This document shows, one piece after another, positions 15,588 through 63,171 of a DNA stretch of 64,000 nt. Each line of letters opens with the position of its first letter. Position 1 is the first letter of the stretch. The stretch lies in the NCBI GenBank assembly GCA_900095095.1, contig FMBT01000325.1, positions 284,832 to 348,831 of the forward strand, written 5' to 3'. Origin of the DNA: Fragilariopsis cylindrus CCMP1102 (taxonomy: Eukaryota; Bacillariophyta; Bacillariophyceae; Bacillariales; Bacillariaceae). The notes beneath the pieces are model-generated. The model was not told the DNA's origin. It saw only the letters and a list, made by a program, of their open reading frames with translations, and did not search any database. The translations under genes and the position numbers were made by a program.

Positions 15588-18261
15588 ATGATGATCAACA
15601 AGACAAAGAGATCTTTCTCGCAAAATTATACCGATAGCCACATGTGTGGATACTATGGATTAGTGATAGCTCTCATGTGCTGCATGGTGATCTTTCCGTC
15701 TGAAACGGTTGCACAAAGGGCGGCTGTTGGTATAGGGAGTAAACTCAAGAAAGGCATATTTGGTGGTAATAGTTTCGGAATCAAAAAGAATAGTAACAGT
15801 GCACAAGAAGGTGAGGATAACGACGAAGACGGTGACAACGGGATGATACTTCAAGTATTGATGATAATCATGGAAAAACCTGGAATTACTTTACGATGTT
15901 GGTTGCTTTGTCGGATACGTTTATTGTATCTCTTTCAGCAAAAGAAAATCAATAACATCGAACAAACTCTCGCTTCAGGTGGCGGCATGGCGGTGAGTGG
16001 CCGGCTGCCGATTTCTTGCTTGCCTATACCTAAGTTGTAGTTATGTTTGAAACGAAACGATATACGCACTTTGAAGTGACGAAATGATTATTACGTGTGT
16101 GCTGTTTGTTCTTGTTTCTGCTTTCTGGGTTGTTACCGTTTGAATGCGAGCGACATTTCTCACTGTTCTCTCTTTCGAATTTTTATTACATGTATTCAAA
16201 TTGTATAACTCTATTATGATGTATCTTTATTCTTGCCGTCGTTCAGAGGAAGAGGTTATTATCCAAGACGGTCATACCAAGGCAGTGGAAAAAATGGACT
16301 TAGGTTTCAATGGAATCTATATGGAATTGGCAGCCAAAAAGAAGAAGAAAAGTCGCGTCATATTAGACGGTAGCATTCGTGGTCGAGCCCGTCCTGGACG
16401 TATGCTGGCAATAATGGGACCGAGTGGTGGTAAGTTAACTGTTATCTCTTTATTTGATCAATTGTTATCGTTCTCGGTAAAACAAATTAAATTTGCGTTG
16501 GGCAAGATACGTCATTGACGAGAAAAACCTTCCCATAATTCATTCACTTCGTTTTTGCTTTGTATATTTGTATTTGTATTTATTCTAGCCGGGAAGTCTA
16601 CTGTAATGCATGCGTTAGCAGGTAAGGTGAAGGCGTCAGCTGATATTCAATTGGAAGGGGCGAGATACATCAACGGTCACGCTATTACAGGTGATTCGCA
16701 AGTTCCAGCCGCGTTTGTCAAACAGGAAGTCAGCTTTTTCCCTCACATGACCGTGCGAGAGACGCTAGCTTTCCGTGTCGAGCTCAAATTAGGGAGTTTA
16801 ATTTCAAAGCAAGCGCAAGTGGAGAGAGTCGATGAATTGATCCAAAAGCTACAATTAGAAAAATCAGCTGATACGATTGTTGGTGATGTAAAGGTTCGCG
16901 GTATTTCTGGTGGAGAACGGCGGCGACTTGCGATTGCTTGTGAACTTATCTCTAATCCCTCTGTGATATTCCTTGACGAACCGACTAGTGGATTGGATAG
17001 TACATCAGCAGCCACTCTTGTAGCGGCGCTGCGAAATCTTGCAGATTCAGGAGAAACTGTTGTGGCTGTGATTCATCAACCTAGTCAGTATGTTTTCAAT
17101 GCTTTTGATGATTTGTTGCTGGTTTCCGAAGGCAAGCAAATGTACTTTGGAGAAACCTCTAAGGTACGGGATTATATGAATCAAAATGTGATGAAGGCAC
17201 CTGCTGAAATGGGAACGGCAGAACACGTATTGGACTGTATTTCTAAAATGGAACAACCAGGTGAAACTCCTGAGGATGCATCGGATAGGATCGATAGCTT
17301 AGCCTCGCTGGCACGAACACAAGATATTGATGTGGGGGAGTTACCCGCATCAACTGCTGTTAAAAAGTATCGCGGAGATTCCAACTTACGTCGAGCCAAT
17401 ATTTTCGTTCAATTTAAGCTTTTGTTACGACGTTCGATTCGAGAAAACTTCAGGAGCAAAGCAACGTTAATAATCAAGTTGGTACAGCAGGTCTCTTTGG
17501 GTCTTATATATGGAACTATCTACCATTTGGGTGACAATCAAGCTAGCATCATGGATAGATTTGGTTTAATTTCCTTGATTGCTATTGGTGGATCGAATAT
17601 GGCGATGGCTAGCACAATCAGGGCATTTCCAAAAGAAAAGGCCATTGTTTCAGGTGAACTTGGCGACCACATGTATGGAACTCTTCCATACTTTATTGGT
17701 AAGGCGATGTCGGAAATCCCACTTACGGCATTTTTTAATTCCCTTTTTGGTGTTTTAGTGTCGTCATTGACTGGTCTGAACAGCACATTTGGCAAGATGA
17801 AGCGCTTTTTAGGGCTGGTTTCTCTACACGGATTAGCCGGCCAATCAGCTGGGCTTGCGATTGGAGCTCTTGCTCCATCACAAGAGGCAGCATTGGCACT
17901 TTTCCCTGCAATCATGGTCCTCAATATTATTTTTGACGGCAAGAATATATCCGAAGAAAGTACGCCTCGTTTTCTAAGATGGCTTCCAAAGATTGGGCTC
18001 ATCCGTTGGGGCTTCGAAGGTATGAGTTTGAACGAATTTGAGGGTTTAGAATTCAGTAGTTCAGGGCCACGTCGAGGGCCAGTGGCCAAAAATGGCGTAG
18101 ATGCTTTAGCTAGGTTTGGACTAGGGAACAACTCGTTGTCCACAGTAGTGAAGGCACAGGTTCTCATCATTTCTGCCTCATGGTTCATGAGTTATCTAGG
18201 ACTTACTCTTACGCGTCAAAAGTTCCAAAAAATGGAAGTACGTGCTAACGATTCCAAATAA
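15588..18261 (+). CDS. ABCG (White-type) half-transporter
   Basis: Exons 15588..15992, 16249..16429 and 16589..18261, about 752 residues. The intron between exons 2 and 3 interrupts the Walker A codons; splicing restores MGPSGAGKST. Other ATPase motifs are ISGGERRR (signature), VIFLDEPTSGLDS (Walker B) and VIHQPS (H loop). The membrane domain begins about residue 430 (RRSIRENFRSKATLIIKLVQQ) and has the GTLPYFIGKAMSEIP and GLAGQSAGLAIGAL segments seen in ABCG proteins. ABCG dimers export lipids, sterols or small hydrophobic compounds; the substrate cannot be told here. The N-terminus is unusual: about 135 residues before the ATPase, with a hydrophobic leader (YYGLVIALMCCMVIFP). From about 15843 an alternative frame (DDTSSIDDNHGKTWNYF..) looks at least as protein-like as the open one, so exon 1 may hide compensating indels. 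Confidence 0.92.
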
Positions 18262-18683
18262 ATACTCTACCGAAATTGGTTCCCGTTGATGAGATAATGA
18301 ACTACATATATAATGTTTTGCTTTGCCAACACAATTGATACTACACTGTAGTCGAGCTCGTCTAGAAAAAATAGTAATAGTTAAACACGGATAGTATAGT
18401 ACTGTACCTTATTTATTTAAAACAATCTCTTTTTGATATTAGTCTCTAGAGGGAAAAGGGGTAGTCAGATTCGCCCAAACCCAATAGGTTAATTTATATA
18501 TCAAAAATAGCACTACTTTAGTTCTTATTTCTTTTTTAAATACGACGACAACCATCCACAATGGATATATATGGTATCACAATTATTTCACTACAGTATA
18601 CACCGAAAGTAGTAAAATACTCGTCTACAAGATACAAATCGAATTATTTACTACCGATATATATACACTTTTTATATCTTAAT
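18262..18683. other. Intergenic interval ABCG / prefoldin 2
   Basis: AT-rich. It contains GTACTGTAC at about 18409, one instance of a motif that recurs in intergenic DNA of this window. Confidence 0.5.
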
Positions 18684-19691
18684 ATGGCAGCTGAAGCACC
18701 CCCGCAGATACAATACCGTGATTTGATGGCAGAATGTCAACAACTCATGTCGAAGATAGCATCGATCGAAGGCGATCGAAATGAACACGTTCTTGTGGAA
18801 GAGACATTACAACCACTAGATGCGGGTCGTCGTGCATATCGGTAAGGTGTCGTTACTTCTTCTCTCTCCCTATATATTTCTCCGTCTTCTATTCTCTCCC
18901 TATATATTGAATTCCCTACCAAATCGCTCACTAATATCAAAATACATATGATATTATTTCATTCTCAACTTTCTAAAACTGTGAATTTTTACCTTTAAAA
19001 TAAAAACAAAAAAACTTCGTCATTACTGTACTCAGACTGGTTGGGGATGTAAGTACTGTATATTAATTTATGTACCACCAGTATTTATGTTTACTTATTG
19101 TATTATTCTTAAAAGGTTGCTGGTGCGAATATTTCACACAGATTTTAAAAAAAAATTAAAAAATCTCACCTTTTCTTTTATTATTTTCTTTTAAAAAGGT
19201 TTTAGTAGAACGAACCGTTGCCGAAGTTTTGCCATCGATTACTCAAAACAAGGATAATGTAAGGGCTTTTTACGATGTTTTGATTATGATACTGTCTTGC
19301 TATATAATAATAAGTTTGTCTGTTTGTACTTTCACAGTCGCGGATGTCTAATACTTTTATTGTTTAATTTCCTCGTCGAATTTCCGTTGTATGTATGTGT
19401 TTTTACTTCTCTATTTTCACTGCATACATGATATTAATTGAACTTGGTTCCGAATTTGCGGGGGTTTTCAACCGACGAAATGAATTTATCTTACTGTGGT
19501 AACTGTTTCTTATCGAAAATGAATGGATGGTTTTATACAATACCGATACAATATTATTATTATTGTTGTTGTTGTTGTTGTTGTTTTTGTCTTTGTAGTT
19601 AAACGCGACGATTCAAGCTTTGGGAGATAGACTATCAATCCGACAAAAGAAGGCGGCAGAACTCAAATCTAAACACAACTTGGACCAGTAA
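18684..19691 (+). CDS. Prefoldin subunit 2, four exons including a 13-nt microexon
   Basis: Exons 18684..18841, 19036..19048, 19199..19258 and 19599..19691 give 107 residues (324 nt including stop). The start at 18684 gives MAAEAPPQIQYRDLMAEC; an upstream in-frame ATG at 18561 would add a hydrophobic, unlikely extension. The family core is continuous only when the 13-nt exon is included: RRAYR-LVGD-VLVERTVAEVLPSI, matching the conserved YRxVGxVLVERTVxEVLP of prefoldin 2, followed by LNATIQALGDRLSIRQKKAAEL and KHN. Prefoldin is the hexameric co-chaperone that delivers unfolded actin and tubulin to the CCT chaperonin; subunit 2 is a beta-type subunit with a coiled-coil hairpin. All introns have GT-AG borders; the microexon uses TACTCAG and GTAAGT. 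Confidence 0.9.
19562..19585. repeat. (GTT)n run near prefoldin intron 3 acceptor
   Basis: A GTT repeat contributes to the T-rich tract ahead of TTTGTAG, as in the PNGase intron. Confidence 0.65.
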
Positions 19692-20647: not shown

Positions 20648-22895
20648 ATGTCAACTCTACCCAAAGACCTGACGGTCAATACAATAGAATACGACTTCGA
20701 AGATTATGCCCTCAAACATGGAATCCCGGAAACCCTCGATCCACTTCCCTACCGCAAAGCGGGTAGTGTTTTTCAGAGTGAAGATCCGAACAACACCGAC
20801 AGCAACATCATCGAAGAGCAGCAACAGCAACAGCAGCAGCAACAAAGTGCGAACTTGACCAGTGCCAAACATGATCCCCGGCTTCGTACAGTTGTATGTC
20901 GCCATTGGTTGAGAGATCTGTGTATGAAAGGTAGCGCCTGTGAATTTTTACATCAATACGATCTTTCTAAGATGCCTTTGTGTCGGCACGGTGAACGCTG
21001 CAAAATTTCTGAATGTCCATTCCGTCATATCAGCGAGGCAAATCGGTTGGAATGCGTGTTTTACAGCCAGGGTTTTTGTATCCATGGTCCATTTTGTCGT
21101 TATAAACACGTTAGACGAGATCGACAAGATCTACCTCAAGTGGCTGATTTTACCCTTGGATTGAGTCAAATGCAAGCGGCGGCGAATCAACTCGAGGGAG
21201 AATCAGGTCAGCGATCGAACAACCGCCGGAACAACCAACAAGGGAACCAGGAGGGTGGTGCCTATGGGGATGCTTCCAGCCGACGTCCTGCACCGAAACC
21301 AAATGAATTTTCAAAATCAGTCTGTGCAAACACTTTATGCAGGGCAATTGCCCATTCGGGGACAGATGTCATTATGCTCACGGTGACACGAATTGCGACA
21401 ATTTCCAGACAAAAAAGACGAAGATAAACACAGAGACGAAAGGTAGGTCATTTTATCATTCATTCATATCGTGCGTGTATAGTGTATTTGTGTGCTTGGT
21501 TGTGGTTGGTGTCTATGTTTAAGACCGTTTCGACAAAACAATGTTGCTGGTAGAGTTAGCGGGTTTGTTATCAAACTATACAGAGTTCTGACCCTTGTTC
21601 CTAACTATCGACCTTTCTTCTGTCATGTGATGTACTTTCAGTGGCGATGTCGACAATGCGAATGATACTGAGTTACAAGACAATATGATCGCTAATATTA
21701 ATAATGTCGACTTTTTTCACGGTGTCGCTTCGGGTGGGGGAAAGCCATCGCCAATTCTTGAACCGGAACACGCTAAGTTTTTTATTCTACTAGCGGCCAC
21801 GCAGACTGACTTGAGCATCTCAACTGAAACAGGAGAATGGTACGTCCAGGCAAAGCATGCCAAAAAACTCAACGATGCCTACCACAATACAAATAAAAAA
21901 GCTGGAAGGCCACAGGTCATGATTTTCTTTACCGTAAGCGATTCCCGACACATTCAAGGGGCCGCAGTGATGACATCAGAGGCTACACATCGGGAAATTT
22001 ATAAGGGAAGAATTTGTTGGTAAGACCCCCCTGGAATTGCAATTTTCATGTCGTTTTTCGGTCGAATGGTATCGTACAACGGAAATGTCCACTACCACTG
22101 CACTGGGGCGGCATCGGATTTGTCTTTGCCAACATCCCAAACAGAATTATGCAAAGAGATGAGTTGGAAAACAGGTGAATCCCTCATGAAAGCTGTGTGG
22201 AACTCTCCATTGGTAACGCTATACGAGTCATGGGGGGAGAATTATGGCGACAATGGAGGAGAATATAAAGAACCACCAGCTCCTGATTCACTCCTAACAG
22301 ACTTCCGATGTCCTTCTCCCGATGAGGTTCCGTGGCCTGTGTTACCAGGTCCGGGATTCATTTTTGGTTGTTCCTCGGACACTATGGACGAATGTCTTGG
22401 TGGAGGTATTTTGGGCTTGCCATGCATATGAAAGGGCGGCACAATGGATTGTTCCTGGTACAAGTGTTTTTTGTTCAATGTAACCGATCGACTCCTGTTT
22501 GGTGTTTTTGAAGCGTTGACACCGGCTCGAGTGAACATGGAACCGACAGCATTTTCTAAAAATCCCAAGGCAACCTCAAGTCCTTTTCCTGTTCAAATTC
22601 GGGTGCGAGTGAGTTTGGAATGCCCTCCTTAGAAGATACAGACCCAATTTTGAATGATATCTTGCGAAGTCGTGGAAAGAGTGGACGTATCGGAAGTTTA
22701 ACTTTTGCTCAAACAGAAGCAATAGCGAGTTTGCTAGCAAGTCAATGTGGCGCTCTTCAGTATATGATGGACTATCAGCAGGGATTGTGGGAGGGTGTTG
22801 AGGTCAACCCACCGCCAATCGCTTTACCACCGAAAGTTGACAGCACAACTAATAATGTGCCGAATAGTAGTAACAATACGATGATGCAGGAGTGA
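20648..22895 (+). CDS. CPSF30-type CCCH zinc-finger protein with YTH and DCD domains, frame broken by one-base contractions
   Basis: Exon 1 (20648..21442) has CPSF30 fingers: CRHWLRDLC..CEFLH, CRHGERC..CPFRH and CVFYSQGFC..CRYKH, then CKHFMQGNCPFGDRCHYAH. The intron is 21443..21641 (GTAGGT..TTTCAG). Exon 2 holds a YTH domain: KFFILLAATQTDLSISTETG then EWYVQAKHAKKLNDAY with the first cage Trp, the second Trp near 22017, VEWYR near 22070 and VHYHCTG near 22092. A DCD domain follows: GFIFGCSSDTMDECL, WIVPGTSVFLFNVTDRLLFG, VFEALTPARVNMEP, PVQIRVRVSLECPPLEDTD. Frames change near 21310, 21405, 22020, 22085, 22410, 22435, 22465 and 22630; each is repaired by adding one base to a short run (e.g. CCC at 22630). 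The YTH C-terminal half and the DCD start share one open frame, 22048..22431. CPSF30 binds the polyadenylation signal region; YTH reads m6A, as in plant CPSF30-L. Confidence 0.85.
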
Positions 22896-24680
22896 TGTGA
22901 CGATAACTACAAAATGCTATGGCCGCTTGTCAAATAACTTATCTACTTAACTTGGGAAATAGTTTTAATAATTTTAATAACGCGGTCTTATTAGCTCTAG
23001 TAGTTAATATGCGTAGATTTTCAATCATATTTTTCAGTAAATAGCTCAGATGAAATGAAATGTATGAAGGTTTTCATGTCACAAAAAGATATAGCCAACT
23101 TTGATTACTTGTTGAAGTTATTTCAATGCTGTATTAACAATATGGAAGATAGATTCCAGTTGAAATGTGGCATAGATTATGTGTGGTGTGATGTCCCCAC
23201 CCACAGCACATTGCCCATACAATTGAGCCCATAATATTGAGCAGATTGCCCCAAACACAAAACTGTCCAAACGATCAACTTGGAATAGATGAATGACATC
23301 AAAAAAAATGTGAGGAAAGACAAAATATCTGGGCCCACCCAGTCCACCCAGTGTCATTGATGTGGTAGTTAGTTAGTTATTGGCTTTTTGAGGGCATATT
23401 GTCATACATAAGAATCCAATTAATTAATTGACTATACTAGTTCTGTGACAGAAGGAGAAGAAGAACAGATCTACCTGCTACAATGTAGGCATTTTCTTCC
23501 TGTATTACATTTATTTGTTAACAACATCTTGACTCTCATAGAAATAAGAAGGCAATATTATAGTGTTCTACGCGTAACAAGTTGGACCAGGGTTGCACAA
23601 CAAACAGAGAAAATGGAAATTTTAAATATTATGACCTCCAACATGAGTTTATCTTATTTCTTAAAGCAACACATAGTTCAAATCCATAGGAAGAGATACT
23701 GAACAAAGGTCAGGACTCACAGATGTACTGATGGCAAATCAACAGACAGCCCTCACTGGCAAGCAGTAACAAAAACTTTTGAAACAATAAATAATGAACT
23801 AAAAAACCTTCAAACAAATAATAAAGAATGACCTACAATTAGTATGTATCTAGCTGGAAAAGAAAGTGGTAGAATCTTGAGGGATAAAAAGAAGAAGAAG
23901 CAGTAGTTTAGGTTAAATGAATTACGGCCGTATCACATGCCAAAGAAGAGATTTATTGTCGACAGCAAAGAGATCAATATTTTCTCTTCTTGCGTATCAG
24001 CAGTATCCGCCAACACTGTCCCCATCAACATCATCTAATGCAGCAACATTCTTGTGATTTTCATCCTGTACATGATCCGCTGTCACATCATACCAGCAAC
24101 TATACCATCAGCAGTATCAGCAGCATCTAATGCAGCAACATTCTCATGATTTTCATCCTGTACTGTACATAATCCGCTGTCACATCATATCAACAACTAT
24201 CATCAGCAGTATCAGCAGTATCAGCAGTGTCGCGTGATACTCCGCTCAAATAACGTCTCTATTTTATCTCCGTACAAGTATTGCTTCCATAGCATCGATA
24301 CGGACAAAATATAAAAATGATACGGCTTAAGCTTTTGTTGAGCAGGGCGAACTACACTTTATGTGAAGCAAGCACTATTTTAATCGATAGAAATCACTGT
24401 AAAATGCTGTACTTGTACATCGCCAATTAAAAAACTGTGATTCCAAAAGAATGATCGCCTATGTGTGATTGTCACACCTCTGCAATCTACTGTATCGAAA
24501 ATACAGATAGTAATAGTCTAATCATCCATCAAGCATATTCTTTCTGTCCTCTAGTTTTCAAGCAAACTACGTACTACGACAGTTCATTTCTGCCATCCTA
24601 CGGCAAACAAAAACTGTATCGATATATATAACAAACGAGAGAGTGATAGTATTCTCGTCGTTTATAAATAACAGTTGACC
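22896..24680. other. Long intergenic interval with decayed repeat-like sequence
   Basis: No intact gene. Short open frames at 23118-23357 (-) and 23445-23702 (+) have no recognised family. The segment 23940-24250 contains a 92-bp tandem duplication with coding-like periodicity on the minus strand. It may be remnants of a mobile element, but no terminal repeats or enzyme motifs are seen. Confidence 0.45.
24032..24212. repeat. Two-copy tandem repeat, 92-bp period
   Basis: CATCTAATGCAGCAACATTC begins at 24032 and again at 24124. The copies are near identical apart from small indels and both end in CAGCAGTATCAG triplets. On the minus strand each copy can be read as ADHVQDENHKNVAALD-like text, suggesting a former coding repeat. 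Confidence 0.8.
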
Positions 24681-27600
24681 ATGCAGTTCTTTCTAACAAG
24701 AGCGTTCCTTGTCGCTTTGACTTTTGGTGCTGGCTCGTCTGTAGCAAATCTCAAAAATGTTGGAGATGATGTTAATAATGATGAAGCGGAGACATTCTTC
24801 TGGAGGACTATGATTAGAAACGTCGATAGTATGCCAACGTTGGCACCGATTTCTTCGAATTCCACTACTAGCCCTACCACCACACCCGATGGTCCAACAA
24901 CTGTAGATCCAACGTCGGCTCCTGTGGGTCCGACAACCGCACCTATTATTGCGACATCGGCTCCTAGCAATGTAGTACCGAGTACTGTTGCACCTAGCAG
25001 TGGTACAACCGCCACTGCTCCTAGCACCGTTCCATTAAGCACTGCTCCATTCACTAGCACACCCACTAGCTCATCATCGTGTCAGTCTATCGGTATGTAT
25101 CGAAATATCTACAAAATAGATAAATTAATCCTTCGAAATTTGTGGAACTAACAATGAATGTAACCAATAATTTCCTTCCCTCTTTCTCCTTTATTTGTAA
25201 AGAGGCACTTGTTTGCTTACTACCCGAGTTGAGTACATTATGCGAATTAACAATCGCAGCAGGTCTGGGCGATGCCCTGAGTGATGATATATTTACGTTA
25301 TTCGCACCAACCAACGAAGCATTCGATTCGATCCCAGCAGAATTTTTGGAAGGAATTACCGATGCCGAGATTTTGAGGAACGTGCTACTATACCATGCTG
25401 TTCCCGAAATGGTATTGAGTTCAGAAGATCTTGTTTGTGGTGCTGAAGTAATGATGGCAAACAGAGATTTTACAACTACAACGTGCATTGATAATGAGAA
25501 ATATCAAATTGGATCACGTAATCCTCCTAGTGCATTACCAAAGATAGTGGCTCCAGATGGCGTTGCTTGCAACGGTATCATCCATGTCGTTGATCAAGTC
25601 ATTCTTCCTGGTGCTCTTTTTACCGACCCACCTACCACCACACCCGATGATCCTACACCGTCACCTGTTGACCCAACAACAGTAGACCCAACACCAGGTC
25701 CCACTCTTAGTAGCCCTATTAGTGATCCAACAACAGCAGATCCAACGCCGGGTCCTATTGATCCAACACCCGTACCTATTGATTCAACGTCGGCTCCTAA
25801 CAATGTAGAACCAAGTAGTGTTGTACCTAGCAGTGGTGCAACCACCACTAGTCCTACCGACTACCCCACTCTTGGTAAAACCAGCATGGCTCCATTCACT
25901 AGCACACCTACTGGCTCGTCATCGGCTCCTATTATTCCAACACCAGATCCTATTGATTCAACACCCCACCTATTGAATCGACGTTGGCTCCTAGTATTCC
26001 AACACCAGATCCTATTGATCCAACACCCGCACCTATTGAATCGACGTTGGTTCCTATTCTTCCTACACCAGATCCTATTGTTCCCATTGATCCAACACCG
26101 CACCTATTGAATCGACGTTGGTTCCTATTCTTCCTACACCAGATCCTATTGTTCCAACACCTGCCCCCGTAGATCAATGTCAATCAATTACTGAAGTTGT
26201 GTGTACTCTTCCAGAATTTGAAGTCCTCTGTGCTTTAGTTGGTGATGCTGATTTAGCTGATGTCCTAGGCAGCAATGACAAGTTTACTCTATTTGCACCT
26301 ATCAATACTGCCTTTGAATCTCTTTCCCAAGAGATTCTTGATGCAGTTGCTGGAGATGTGGAATTTTTGAAAAATGTTTTACTTTCTCACGCAGTTGCTG
26401 ATGAGGAACTATTTTCCACAGATCTTGTCTGTGATGATAAAGTAGCAATGGCTAATGGTGTTGAAACAACGACTATTTGCACTGGTGACAAGCTCTTTCA
26501 AGTTGGAGGAGGAAACACTCCAGATATTATTCCTGAGATTGTTGCACCAGATGGTGTTGCATGCAATGGTGTAATTCATGCTATTGACCATGTTATATTC
26601 CCAAGTGGAACATCACCTCCTCACCTCCTCTTGGTTCATCATACTGCACGTTCTCACCAGACGAGACCTGCTACTTAAGTGGTCGGCCAGCCTGCTGTGG
26701 GGACGATGATATGATTGTCCAATAGAGAGGCCAGCATGTGAATTAACTCCTGCTCCATGCCAATCAATTGCTGAAGTTGTATGTACTCTTCCAGAGTTTG
26801 AGGTTCTTTGTTCCTTAGTTGGTGACTCTGATTTGGCTGATGCCCTAGGCAGCAATGACAAGTTCACTCTCTTTGCACCTATCAATACTGCCTTTGAATC
26901 TCTTTCCTCAGATGTAGCTGAAAAAGCTACTAACGATATTGATTTTTTGAAAAATATTCTACTTTCACACGCAATTGCCAATGTGGAAATATATTCTACA
27001 GATCTTGTCTGTACTGAAAAGGAAGAAATGGCCAGTGGAGATGACACAACTACTATTTGCACTGACGACAAGATCTATCAAGTTGGAGCAGGAAATAATC
27101 CAACCAATTTTCCTTTGATTATTGCACCAGATGGTCTTGGATGTAATGGTGTAATTCATGCTATTGACCATGTCATACTCCCAAGTGGAGAATTACCTCC
27201 TTTAGATGACATCTTATCATCCCCTCTAACTTTCTCTGATACTCCTGATACTCCTGTAAATCCTGATATGTTTTTGGCTATGAGAGATGTTATCAATCAG
27301 TACCACACAATATTAATTGAAGATGAAAGTACTTATCAGTATAAAGCACTATCTCAAACTGCTAATCAGATTGGAGCTGAAGGCTTTTCGGAGGTACAGA
27401 TTCTCCAGTACTACGCCCTTTACGCTGTTTACTATGCTACAAACATGGTACCAAACGAAATTACTGTGAAATATCCTGAGTTAGAACTTCCAAAATGGGA
27501 AAACGAAGAAGGCTGGAACGAGAATGGTCGAGATCCGTGTGACGGATGGTTCGGAATAGAATGTGATTCCGAGGGAAGAGTGAAAAATATCGATCTATTT

Positions 27601-28576
27601 AGAAATGGACTGACCGGAAACTTCCCCAAAGAGATCGTTTTGCTTTCTTTTGACGGTCCATTTGCTAATGGATCAGGTAAACTAGAGCGCCTTGATTTGA
27701 CAGGGAATGAATGGCTATCTAACTACAACGACGGCAGTCCAGACAGTTCCTGGATGACAGATTTGGGAAGTATTGGTAAGTTTTTTATAAAGATTTTATG
27801 CAGCAGAACATATGTTTCTTTCCTTCTTGTTCTTCTAAATGCGAACTACAACTAACCTATCCTCAAATTTCTTATTGATTTCCCGAACCTTAACTATTTC
27901 AGAAACGATCAATGTAGAGGACACTAGTTTCAGTGGCTCGATCCCGCGTCTACCTGACGGCCTCGTGACCTTCGACATTTCTGGATCATTCTTTGACGAT
28001 GGTCTTAACGATGCCAACTTTGAGGGACTTGAGCGATTAAATTTCGTTGACCTTGACTACAACTTGTTCGATAGTACCATTCCATCGGTATTCGGTAGAC
28101 TTCCAAGCCTAGAATTTCTTTACGTTTCTGGTAGTTTCATCACAGGGGACCTGTCGTTCATGGAGGGAATGCCTGTGTTACGGGAGCTTTGGATTGATAA
28201 CAATCCTCTCTTGTCAGGTCCGCTTTATGATTATATTGGAGATATCTATACGTTGGAATCTTTCTCTGCTACGTTTGGTAACTTAACAGGCTCTATCCCA
28301 GAATCCTTCGGTAACCTTGAGAACATGAAGCAGATGTGGTTATATTCTAATTTACTTTCAGGATCTGTCCCACCGCAACTAGGTGCTTTGAAATCAATGG
28401 AAACCCTGCAGGTGGAAGGCAATTCATTCAGTGGAGTTATGCCTGAAGAAGTATGTGCAAATATTGGTGATTCACTTGCAGTTTTGGGAGCAGATTGTGA
28501 AGAGCTAGAATGCTCCTGTTGTACATGCTGCGGACTGGGAGAGTGCAACGAACAACCTCAACCTCCTGCTATCTAA
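24681..28576 (+). CDS. Secreted mosaic protein: Pro/Thr/Ser-rich, three FAS1 (fasciclin) domains, LRR domain
   Basis: Exons 24681..25092, 25203..27775 and 27903..28576. A signal peptide (MQFFLTRAFLVALTFGAGSS) is followed by a mucin-like Thr/Pro/Ser region. FAS1 domain 1 (25203-25620) has FTLFAPTNEAF and LLYHAVPE. A second Pro-rich linker of DPIDPTPAPIEST-type repeats (25620-26180) follows. FAS1 domains 2 and 3 (about 26180-26600 and 26760-27190) each have FTLFAPINTAFESLS and LLSHA. After a spacer comes an LRR domain starting with a capping motif (DPCDGWFGIECD), then repeats such as LTGNFPKEI, FSGSIPRLP and LTGSIPESFGNL, ending in a Cys-rich tail. FAS1 and LRR domains mediate adhesion to matrix or partner proteins, so a cell-surface role is likely. 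Frame breaks near 25967, 26100, 26625 and 26705 each need one added base; the second and third FAS1 domains look like a recent internal duplication. Confidence 0.85.
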
Positions 28577-61743: not shown

Positions 61744-63171
61744 TTAAAAGCATTTACGGTGAACGATAGATGGACCAGATTCGTCATATTCCTCCTTGCT
61801 AATCCACATACTTTGGAATGTAGACAATGATGCAAGAATAGATCCTCCAATCCATACAGAGTATTTACGTTCTGGAGGAGCAACAATCTTGACCTTGATA
61901 GATGCAGGAGCTAATGCAGTAACCTCCTTGGACATGCGCTCACTAATTCCAGGGAACATAGTAGTACCACCTGAAAGAACAATATTGGCATACAAATCCT
62001 TTCGGATATCAACATCACACTTCATAATGGTTTGGAATGTACTATCAGCAATACCATCCATTTCAAGACCAGTCAAGTTAGGTTGGAAAAGAACCTCTGC
62101 ACAACGGAAGCGTTCATTTCCAATAACAATGATATTTCCATCAGGCAATTCAAAGGATTTTTCCAAAGCAGATGATTCAGCAGCCTTCTTCATTTCTTCC
62201 TCAAAATCAACAGCAATGAAACAAAGAGATTCCTTGATATCACGGACAATTTCACGTTCTGCAGTGGTAGTCAAAGAATAACCACGTTCAGTCAAAATCT
62301 TCATCAAATAATCAGTCAAATCACGACCAGCAAGATCCATACGGACAACAGCATGGGGAAGAGCATATCCCTCATAGATTGGTACTGTATGGGAGACACC
62401 ATCTCCAGAATCCAACACACACCCCGTGGTACGTCCTGATGCATACAATGAAAGAACGGCTTGGATATTCACGTACATAGCAGGGACATTGAATGTTTCA
62501 AACATGATTTGTGTCATACGCTCTCTGTTGGCCTTAGGATTCATTGGTGCTTCAGTCAACAAAACAGGATGAGCTTCAGGGGCTACACGAAGCTCATTGT
62601 AGAATGTATGATGCCAAATCTTTTCCATATCATCCCAATTGGTAACAATTCCATGTTCAATGGGGTATTTAAGAGTAAGAACACCTCTCTTTGCTTGTGC
62701 TTCATCCCCAACATAAGCATCTCGTTGTTCCATACCAACCATGATACCAGGTTGACGGGCACGTCCAATCAAGGAAGGAAAGACGGAACGGGGGCGTCAT
62801 CTCCAGCGAAACCGGCTGATGTGCGTAATATAAGTTAAGCGATAAAAAAATGTTAGTGTTTGAATTAAAAAAGAGAAGGCGGGAAATATGTCGAATATCA
62901 GATATTTTGTCATCATCGAGACGACAGATCAATTTCGACGTATTCAATGCATAACGATCTTGCTATATTATCAATCAGTTTTCGTTGTGTGGTTAACTTA
63001 ATCATCATGAAACGTCGACAGCAGTACGACTTTTCGTCGTCGACGTCGTCGTCGTCAGCTTTCGCATTTTTCTTGATGACCGACAGGAAGGGAAACAATA
63101 CTTTTTCTTACCTTTACACATTCCAGATCCATTGTCAACGACAAGGCGGCAATATCTTCGTCATCGCTCAT
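61744..63171 (-). CDS. ACT: Actin, copy 2 (two one-base frameshifts near the 5' end)
   Basis: Exon 1 is 63112..63171 and exon 2 is 61744..62815, with intron 62816..63111 (GTAAGA..CATCAG, 296 nt). From [14 protein letters not shown] onward the protein is identical to copy 1. Exon 1 needs one more C: CC at 63145-63146 where copy 1 has CCC, so [14 protein letters not shown] reads wrongly. Exon 2 has G5 at 62790-62794 where copy 1 has G6, breaking [10 protein letters not shown]. Each of these runs is correct in the other copy, so the pair proof-read one another. The gene has the same orientation as copy 1, 13 kb away, with unrelated intron and flanks. A full-length conventional actin is expected once the runs are restored. 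Confidence 0.95.

Follow-up and report, generated by a model that had tools for sequence, protein, structure and literature searches.

The sole clear CPSF30 gene of the diatom Fragilariopsis cylindrus probably encodes a heterokont-type CPSF subunit that carries a YTH and a DCD domain and that, judged from its sequence, would tune poly(A) site choice to m6A, with the frame changes that interrupt the gene being most likely assembly errors. The gene is located in the window, by which we mean the whole 64,000-nt stretch of DNA that was analyzed and to which all positions below refer. At 20648–22895 of the forward strand, CPSF30-type CCCH fingers are followed by a YTH domain and then by a DCD domain, and the features are as follows:

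20648–22895, + strand: whole gene with CPSF30-like CCCH fingers, YTH and DCD; stop codon at 22893–22895; six frame changes and one probable intron
20897–20953, + strand: CCCH finger 1, which aligns with CPSF4 finger 2 (phmmer against 6fuw chain C)
20981–21028, + strand: CCCH finger 2, which has three residues fewer than the CPSF4 finger to which it corresponds
21053–21109, + strand: CCCH finger 3, which aligns with CPSF4 finger 4 (PF00642)
21325–21381, + strand: CCCH finger 4, in another frame past the first break (PF00642, E 3.6e-10)
21443–21641, + strand: probable intron of the GT-AG type that separates the fingers from YTH; TTTCAG is preceded by CTAAC and a pyrimidine tract, and the donor is at 21443 or 21447, as judged from the DNA letters
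21769–22200, + strand: YTH domain (PF04146), with frame changes at about 22005–22023 and 22085
22024–22428, + strand: uncorrected open frame in which YTH ends and DCD begins (Pfam, alignment to 5zuu)
22354–22644, + strand: DCD domain (PF10539), with frame changes at about 22412, 22466 and 22627

To identify the domains, Pfam searches were performed with single-frame pieces of the gene that had not been corrected. The best E-values in these pieces were 3.6e-10 for PF00642, 2.5e-14 for PF04146, and 3e-12 for PF10539. At least one match at E ≤ 1 was obtained for five of the nine pieces, and no Pfam match was found in the pieces 21974–22159, 22326–22508, 22560–22892 and 22298–22480. Chance similarity was ruled out, as the fingers, YTH and DCD each have a separate single-frame match. 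In a joined protein, made of the single-frame pieces with an X at each join, the searches found a nearly full-length YTH (PF04146 positions 1–134 of 135, 67.6 bits, 1.2e-18) and a DCD (PF10539 positions 2–95 of 126, 71.2 bits, 8.9e-20; cut-off 27.8 bits), with scores that are possibly inflated because the joins were picked by eye, a choice of which the uncorrected scores are independent. The uncorrected and joined matches agree on the order of CPSF30 fingers, YTH and DCD that the initial annotation had proposed; the two profiles that it had named as a check, PF04146 and PF10539, both found their domains, and its claim of one gene and its guess of a diatom are supported as well. As in the heterokont CPSF30-YTH-DCD orthologs, YTH and then DCD stand in one frame behind CPSF30 fingers, with the finger-to-YTH join read through the probable intron.

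The assignment of the gene to CPSF30 is based on its CCCH fingers. Among the uncorrected pieces, 20648–21424 matched the CCCH profiles PF18345 (2e-08) and PF00642 (3.5e-06), and 21307–21519 matched PF00642 (3.6e-10). Fingers 1 to 3, which lie within one open frame, matched fingers 2 to 4 of CPSF4 in 6fuw chain C, which we take to be the human protein (phmmer, E 6.8e-28), and thus show the tandem-finger arrangement of CPSF30/CPSF4.

The N-terminal half of the YTH domain was found without correction in the piece 21631–22020 (PF04146 profile positions 1–67 of 135, E 2.5e-14, 53.6 bits). Among the 34 distinct solved sequences that this half matched at E ≤ 1, the nearest was that of a CPSF30, 5zuu (E 9.9e-05), which we take to be the YTH structure of Arabidopsis CPSF30-L. 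The same structure was the first of 19 solved sequences matched at E ≤ 0.01 by the joined YTH (E 1.5e-09). In the alignment with 5zuu, the tryptophan of GEW, the tryptophan of GRICW and a phenylalanine are placed opposite W, W and Y, in columns that we assign to the presumed cage; the second tryptophan is located beside a frame change, and its placement hinges on the frame read at 22006–22020.

The DCD domain is divided between frames. Its start in 22024–22428 matched PF10539 profile positions 2–24 at E 0.02, which is under the cut-off, and its core in 22432–22629 matched positions 39–90 without correction (E 3e-12, 46.9 bits). When the whole genome was searched in six frames, the DCD pieces came out as a single match at 22354–22644 (66.2 bits, two internal stops). 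By eye, a DCD-like tail may extend to about 22736, outside the profile match. The open frame 22024–22428 contains both the YTH end, which aligned to 5zuu up to MKAVW (22186–22200), and the DCD start, GFIFGC...DECL (22354–22398), so that the join between the two domains needs no correction, just as had been claimed. A search for solved-structure relatives of DCD gave none that was convincing (one match at E 0.42), and the piece 22024–22428 had no match among phage records. No relatives were confirmed in GTDB contigs and IMG/VR with one 91-aa query, where 33 and 3 stretches, respectively, fit a pattern. Neither the joined protein nor the three downstream ORFs searched (23004–23231, 23424–23699 and 23921–24127) gave a KH match at E ≤ 1.

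To determine the copy number, the 67.9-Mb F. cylindrus assembly of 818 contigs was searched with profiles, which found one YTH locus, one DCD locus and one clear CPSF30 finger locus; a second finger match was weak (C742, E 0.013). No second copy was found in the assembly by DNA match, the other 21 matches all being located at query bases 136–215 (window 20775–20854). This segment, around an N-terminal glutamine repeat of the protein, is the sole one in the gene for which the genome contains further DNA matches. Silicon transporters, a family (PF03842) that we take as a marker of diatoms, are present in the genome with 27 matching stretches (best 756.9 bits), as expected for a diatom host. Upstream of the CPSF30 gene and on the same strand is a gene with apparently three exons (18683–19691), which we take, from its sequence, to encode a prefoldin-subunit-2-like protein.

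The gene was further compared with known CPSF30 proteins. It has the fingers followed by YTH in common with Arabidopsis CPSF30-L, the protein with the nearest solved YTH, while DCD and the fourth finger are extra in F. cylindrus. CPSF30 fingers followed by YTH are also common to Toxoplasma gondii CPSF4, but the structure 7ng2, which presumably represents this YTH, is less similar (E 0.57 on the N-terminal half of the F. cylindrus YTH). In Arabidopsis CPSF30-L, the subject of work by Hou et al. and Song et al. in 2021, the binding of m6A by YTH reportedly biases poly(A) site choice. In the report on Toxoplasma CPSF4, its YTH is shown to bind m6A and m6A-dependent polyadenylation is proposed, and the term DCD is absent from the main text (PMC8313237). 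The closest resemblance is to the CPSF30 orthologs with YTH and DCD that, according to Bell et al. (2020; PMC7641849), occur in many heterokonts. The F. cylindrus gene is like them in having CCCH fingers, YTH and DCD in one chain and in its heterokont host. The published architecture, drawn from S. diclina, is Znf-YTH-DCD-KH with three fingers; compared by description, the F. cylindrus gene differs from it in the fourth CCCH finger and in the lack of a detected KH. Hence, the domain combination is not new, and the idea of a novel triple fusion was rejected, as the fusion was published in 2020 (PMC7641849). The statement of the initial annotation that a DCD had not been described in any CPSF30-YTH protein is therefore wrong. 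The same authors report that DCD is not confined to plants and regard it, in conclusion, as related to EVE and PUA-like (Bell et al. 2020; PMC7641849). Hence, a connection of m6A reading with polyadenylation and DCD had been put forward before.

The join between the fingers and YTH could alternatively be explained by two adjoining genes, a finger-only CPSF30 and a separate YTH-DCD protein. This join crosses an intron that is known by inference, and its strongest donor (GTAGGT, 21443) and the acceptor (21640–21641) differ in phase by one base; the GT at 21447 would fit. On the other hand, the GT-AG ends, the branch-like CTAAC and the pyrimidine tract are all in place. A scan for promoters and terminators found none in the intron, but such a scan is of no use in a eukaryote. 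Fingers and YTH are fused in this order in plants and Toxoplasma, and the heterokont orthologs have fingers, YTH and DCD in one chain (PMC7641849; PMC8313237). We therefore consider two genes very improbable.

A different alternative concerns the enzyme that would write the mark read by this protein. The PF05063 (MT-A70) profile, which we take to cover METTL3, METTL14 and METTL4, had no match in the assembly, nor in any of 14 control genomes. A plant MTA domain used as the query had no match in the assembly at E ≤ 1, and the exact codon pattern for ADPPW occurred there in two places, neither of them METTL3-like by eye. The same MTA query scored 215.8 bits on PF05063 and matched 336 phage records (32%–35% identity in the five matches listed), and PF05063 was recovered by genome search in a 53.6-kb phage record (114.8 bits), which is an easier target than 68 Mb. 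As the assembly is imperfect, the absence of MT-A70 is provisional. The WTAP profile gave four sub-threshold matches, the best of them (E 0.004) in a 2597-aa frame; all were read as coiled-coil noise. METTL16/RlmF-type genes (PF05971, Methyltransf_10) are present as four stretches on three contigs (C626, C373 and C558; one NPPF motif each), of which those on C626 and C373 may be the same gene in two copies. These observations could suggest that YTH-DCD no longer reads m6A of the METTL3 type, and that it instead reads m6A made by another enzyme, such as METTL16, or unmodified RNA, and serves CPSF as a general anchor to RNA. The failure of two probes that work elsewhere and of the motif search to find a METTL3-like gene, together with the METTL16/RlmF-type genes, is consistent with this explanation. 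However, failure to find the gene in a single error-prone assembly carries little weight, the positive control of the genome search was a small phage record, and the aromatic residues that align at the presumed cage positions, the second tryptophan beside a frame change, argue against it. Oomycetes are reported to be without METTL3 and METTL14, but P. sojae is described there as having METTL4-type (MT-A70) genes, unlike what was found here, as well as METTL16-type genes, with both implicated in m6A (PMC11449341). For microalgae, the study of Ambrosino et al. reports no MTA transcript in the four species studied, but genome matches for all writer queries, the Cylindrotheca genome included (PMC11312118). 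The question of a reader without a writer in stramenopiles was not discussed among the open-access matches listed. On balance, we regard such a switch of the mark as rather doubtful, and equally tentative is the proposal that CPSF30-YTH-DCD is the sole YTH protein of a diatom without METTL3 and METTL14, in which YTH would read METTL16-type m6A or another mark, and DCD would act in tandem as a second reader.

A further alternative concerns the origin of the frame changes. Six changes were recognized by eye, at about 21310–21325, 22005–22023, 22085, 22412, 22466 and 22627, all of them after finger 3 and one of them in finger 4. Introns are not favored as their cause, as by eye the conserved residues continue across each change. 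As a control, 13 CCT/Cpn60 places were taken from 22 matched stretches in the assembly; a frame change without an intron-like gap was present in three of them (C655, C347 and C451), and none of this kind in the other 10. The CCT gene on C655 has further stops in addition to its frame change. The contigs C347 and C90, which carry the same CCT gene, had no mismatches and one one-base gap in 2000 aligned bases, and the gap is read as an error. Over 624 aligned bases, the contigs C451 and C608 differed by six mismatches and seven indels of one or two bases, while C455 and C564 did not differ across 1996 bases. In a fasciclin gene 3 kb downstream of the CPSF30 gene, single bases are lost and the frame is changed in tandem repeats near 25960–26100. 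The region 25124–27855 contains fasciclin-domain genes with Thr/Pro-rich repeats, the units of which lose single bases, a local sign of assembly indel errors.

Elsewhere in the window, the actin match is open, as is an ABC transporter frame of 580 aa. The actin-family gene (61747–62796, minus strand) is open across profile positions 26–410, and in the ABC transporter gene (ABC_tran and ABC2_membrane, 16144–18258) the interruption near 16430 looks like an ordinary GT-AG intron that falls within the Walker A motif. When 20 other ORFs of the window were searched with Pfam, 10 matched at E ≤ 0.001, and three of these matches (kinase, MRP-L46 and AhpC-like) end inside the profile. The six changes in the CPSF30 gene exceed the number seen in any other gene examined. 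It is conceivable that they are real, that the fingers alone work as a short CPSF30, and that YTH-DCD, perhaps in a young loss, has been in decay since the m6A writer disappeared. The open frame of fingers 1 to 3, with every change downstream of it, the lack of a detected MT-A70 writer, the open actin and ABC transporter frames and the 10 unbroken CCT/Cpn60 places would fit such decay. Yet six joins picked by eye suffice to restore 134 of 135 YTH positions and a DCD of 71 bits, one change falls within finger 4, and indels of the same kind are found in the C655 CCT gene, between duplicate contigs free of mismatches and in the neighboring fasciclin gene. Because such single-base indels occur elsewhere in the assembly and in the window, assembly error is likelier than decay, which we consider improbable; the six changes are most likely assembly errors, on the assumption that errors cluster locally.

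Hence, we favor a single m6A-reading CPSF subunit, for which we infer the splicing, the expression and every binding activity in F. cylindrus. The CCCH fingers would take their place within CPSF, where they would contact the poly(A) signal. By analogy to Arabidopsis CPSF30-L and Toxoplasma CPSF4, YTH would hold m6A near the poly(A) site and in this way bias site choice. DCD, likewise a PUA-like module, may recognize a different base mark, for which Bell et al. suggest m5C (Bell et al. 2020; PMC7641849). With this gene, the heterokont CPSF30-YTH-DCD proteins published so far are joined by one from a diatom genome, with KH undetected, and it raises the question of which enzyme writes the mark, if any, that is read by the sole detected YTH protein of this diatom.
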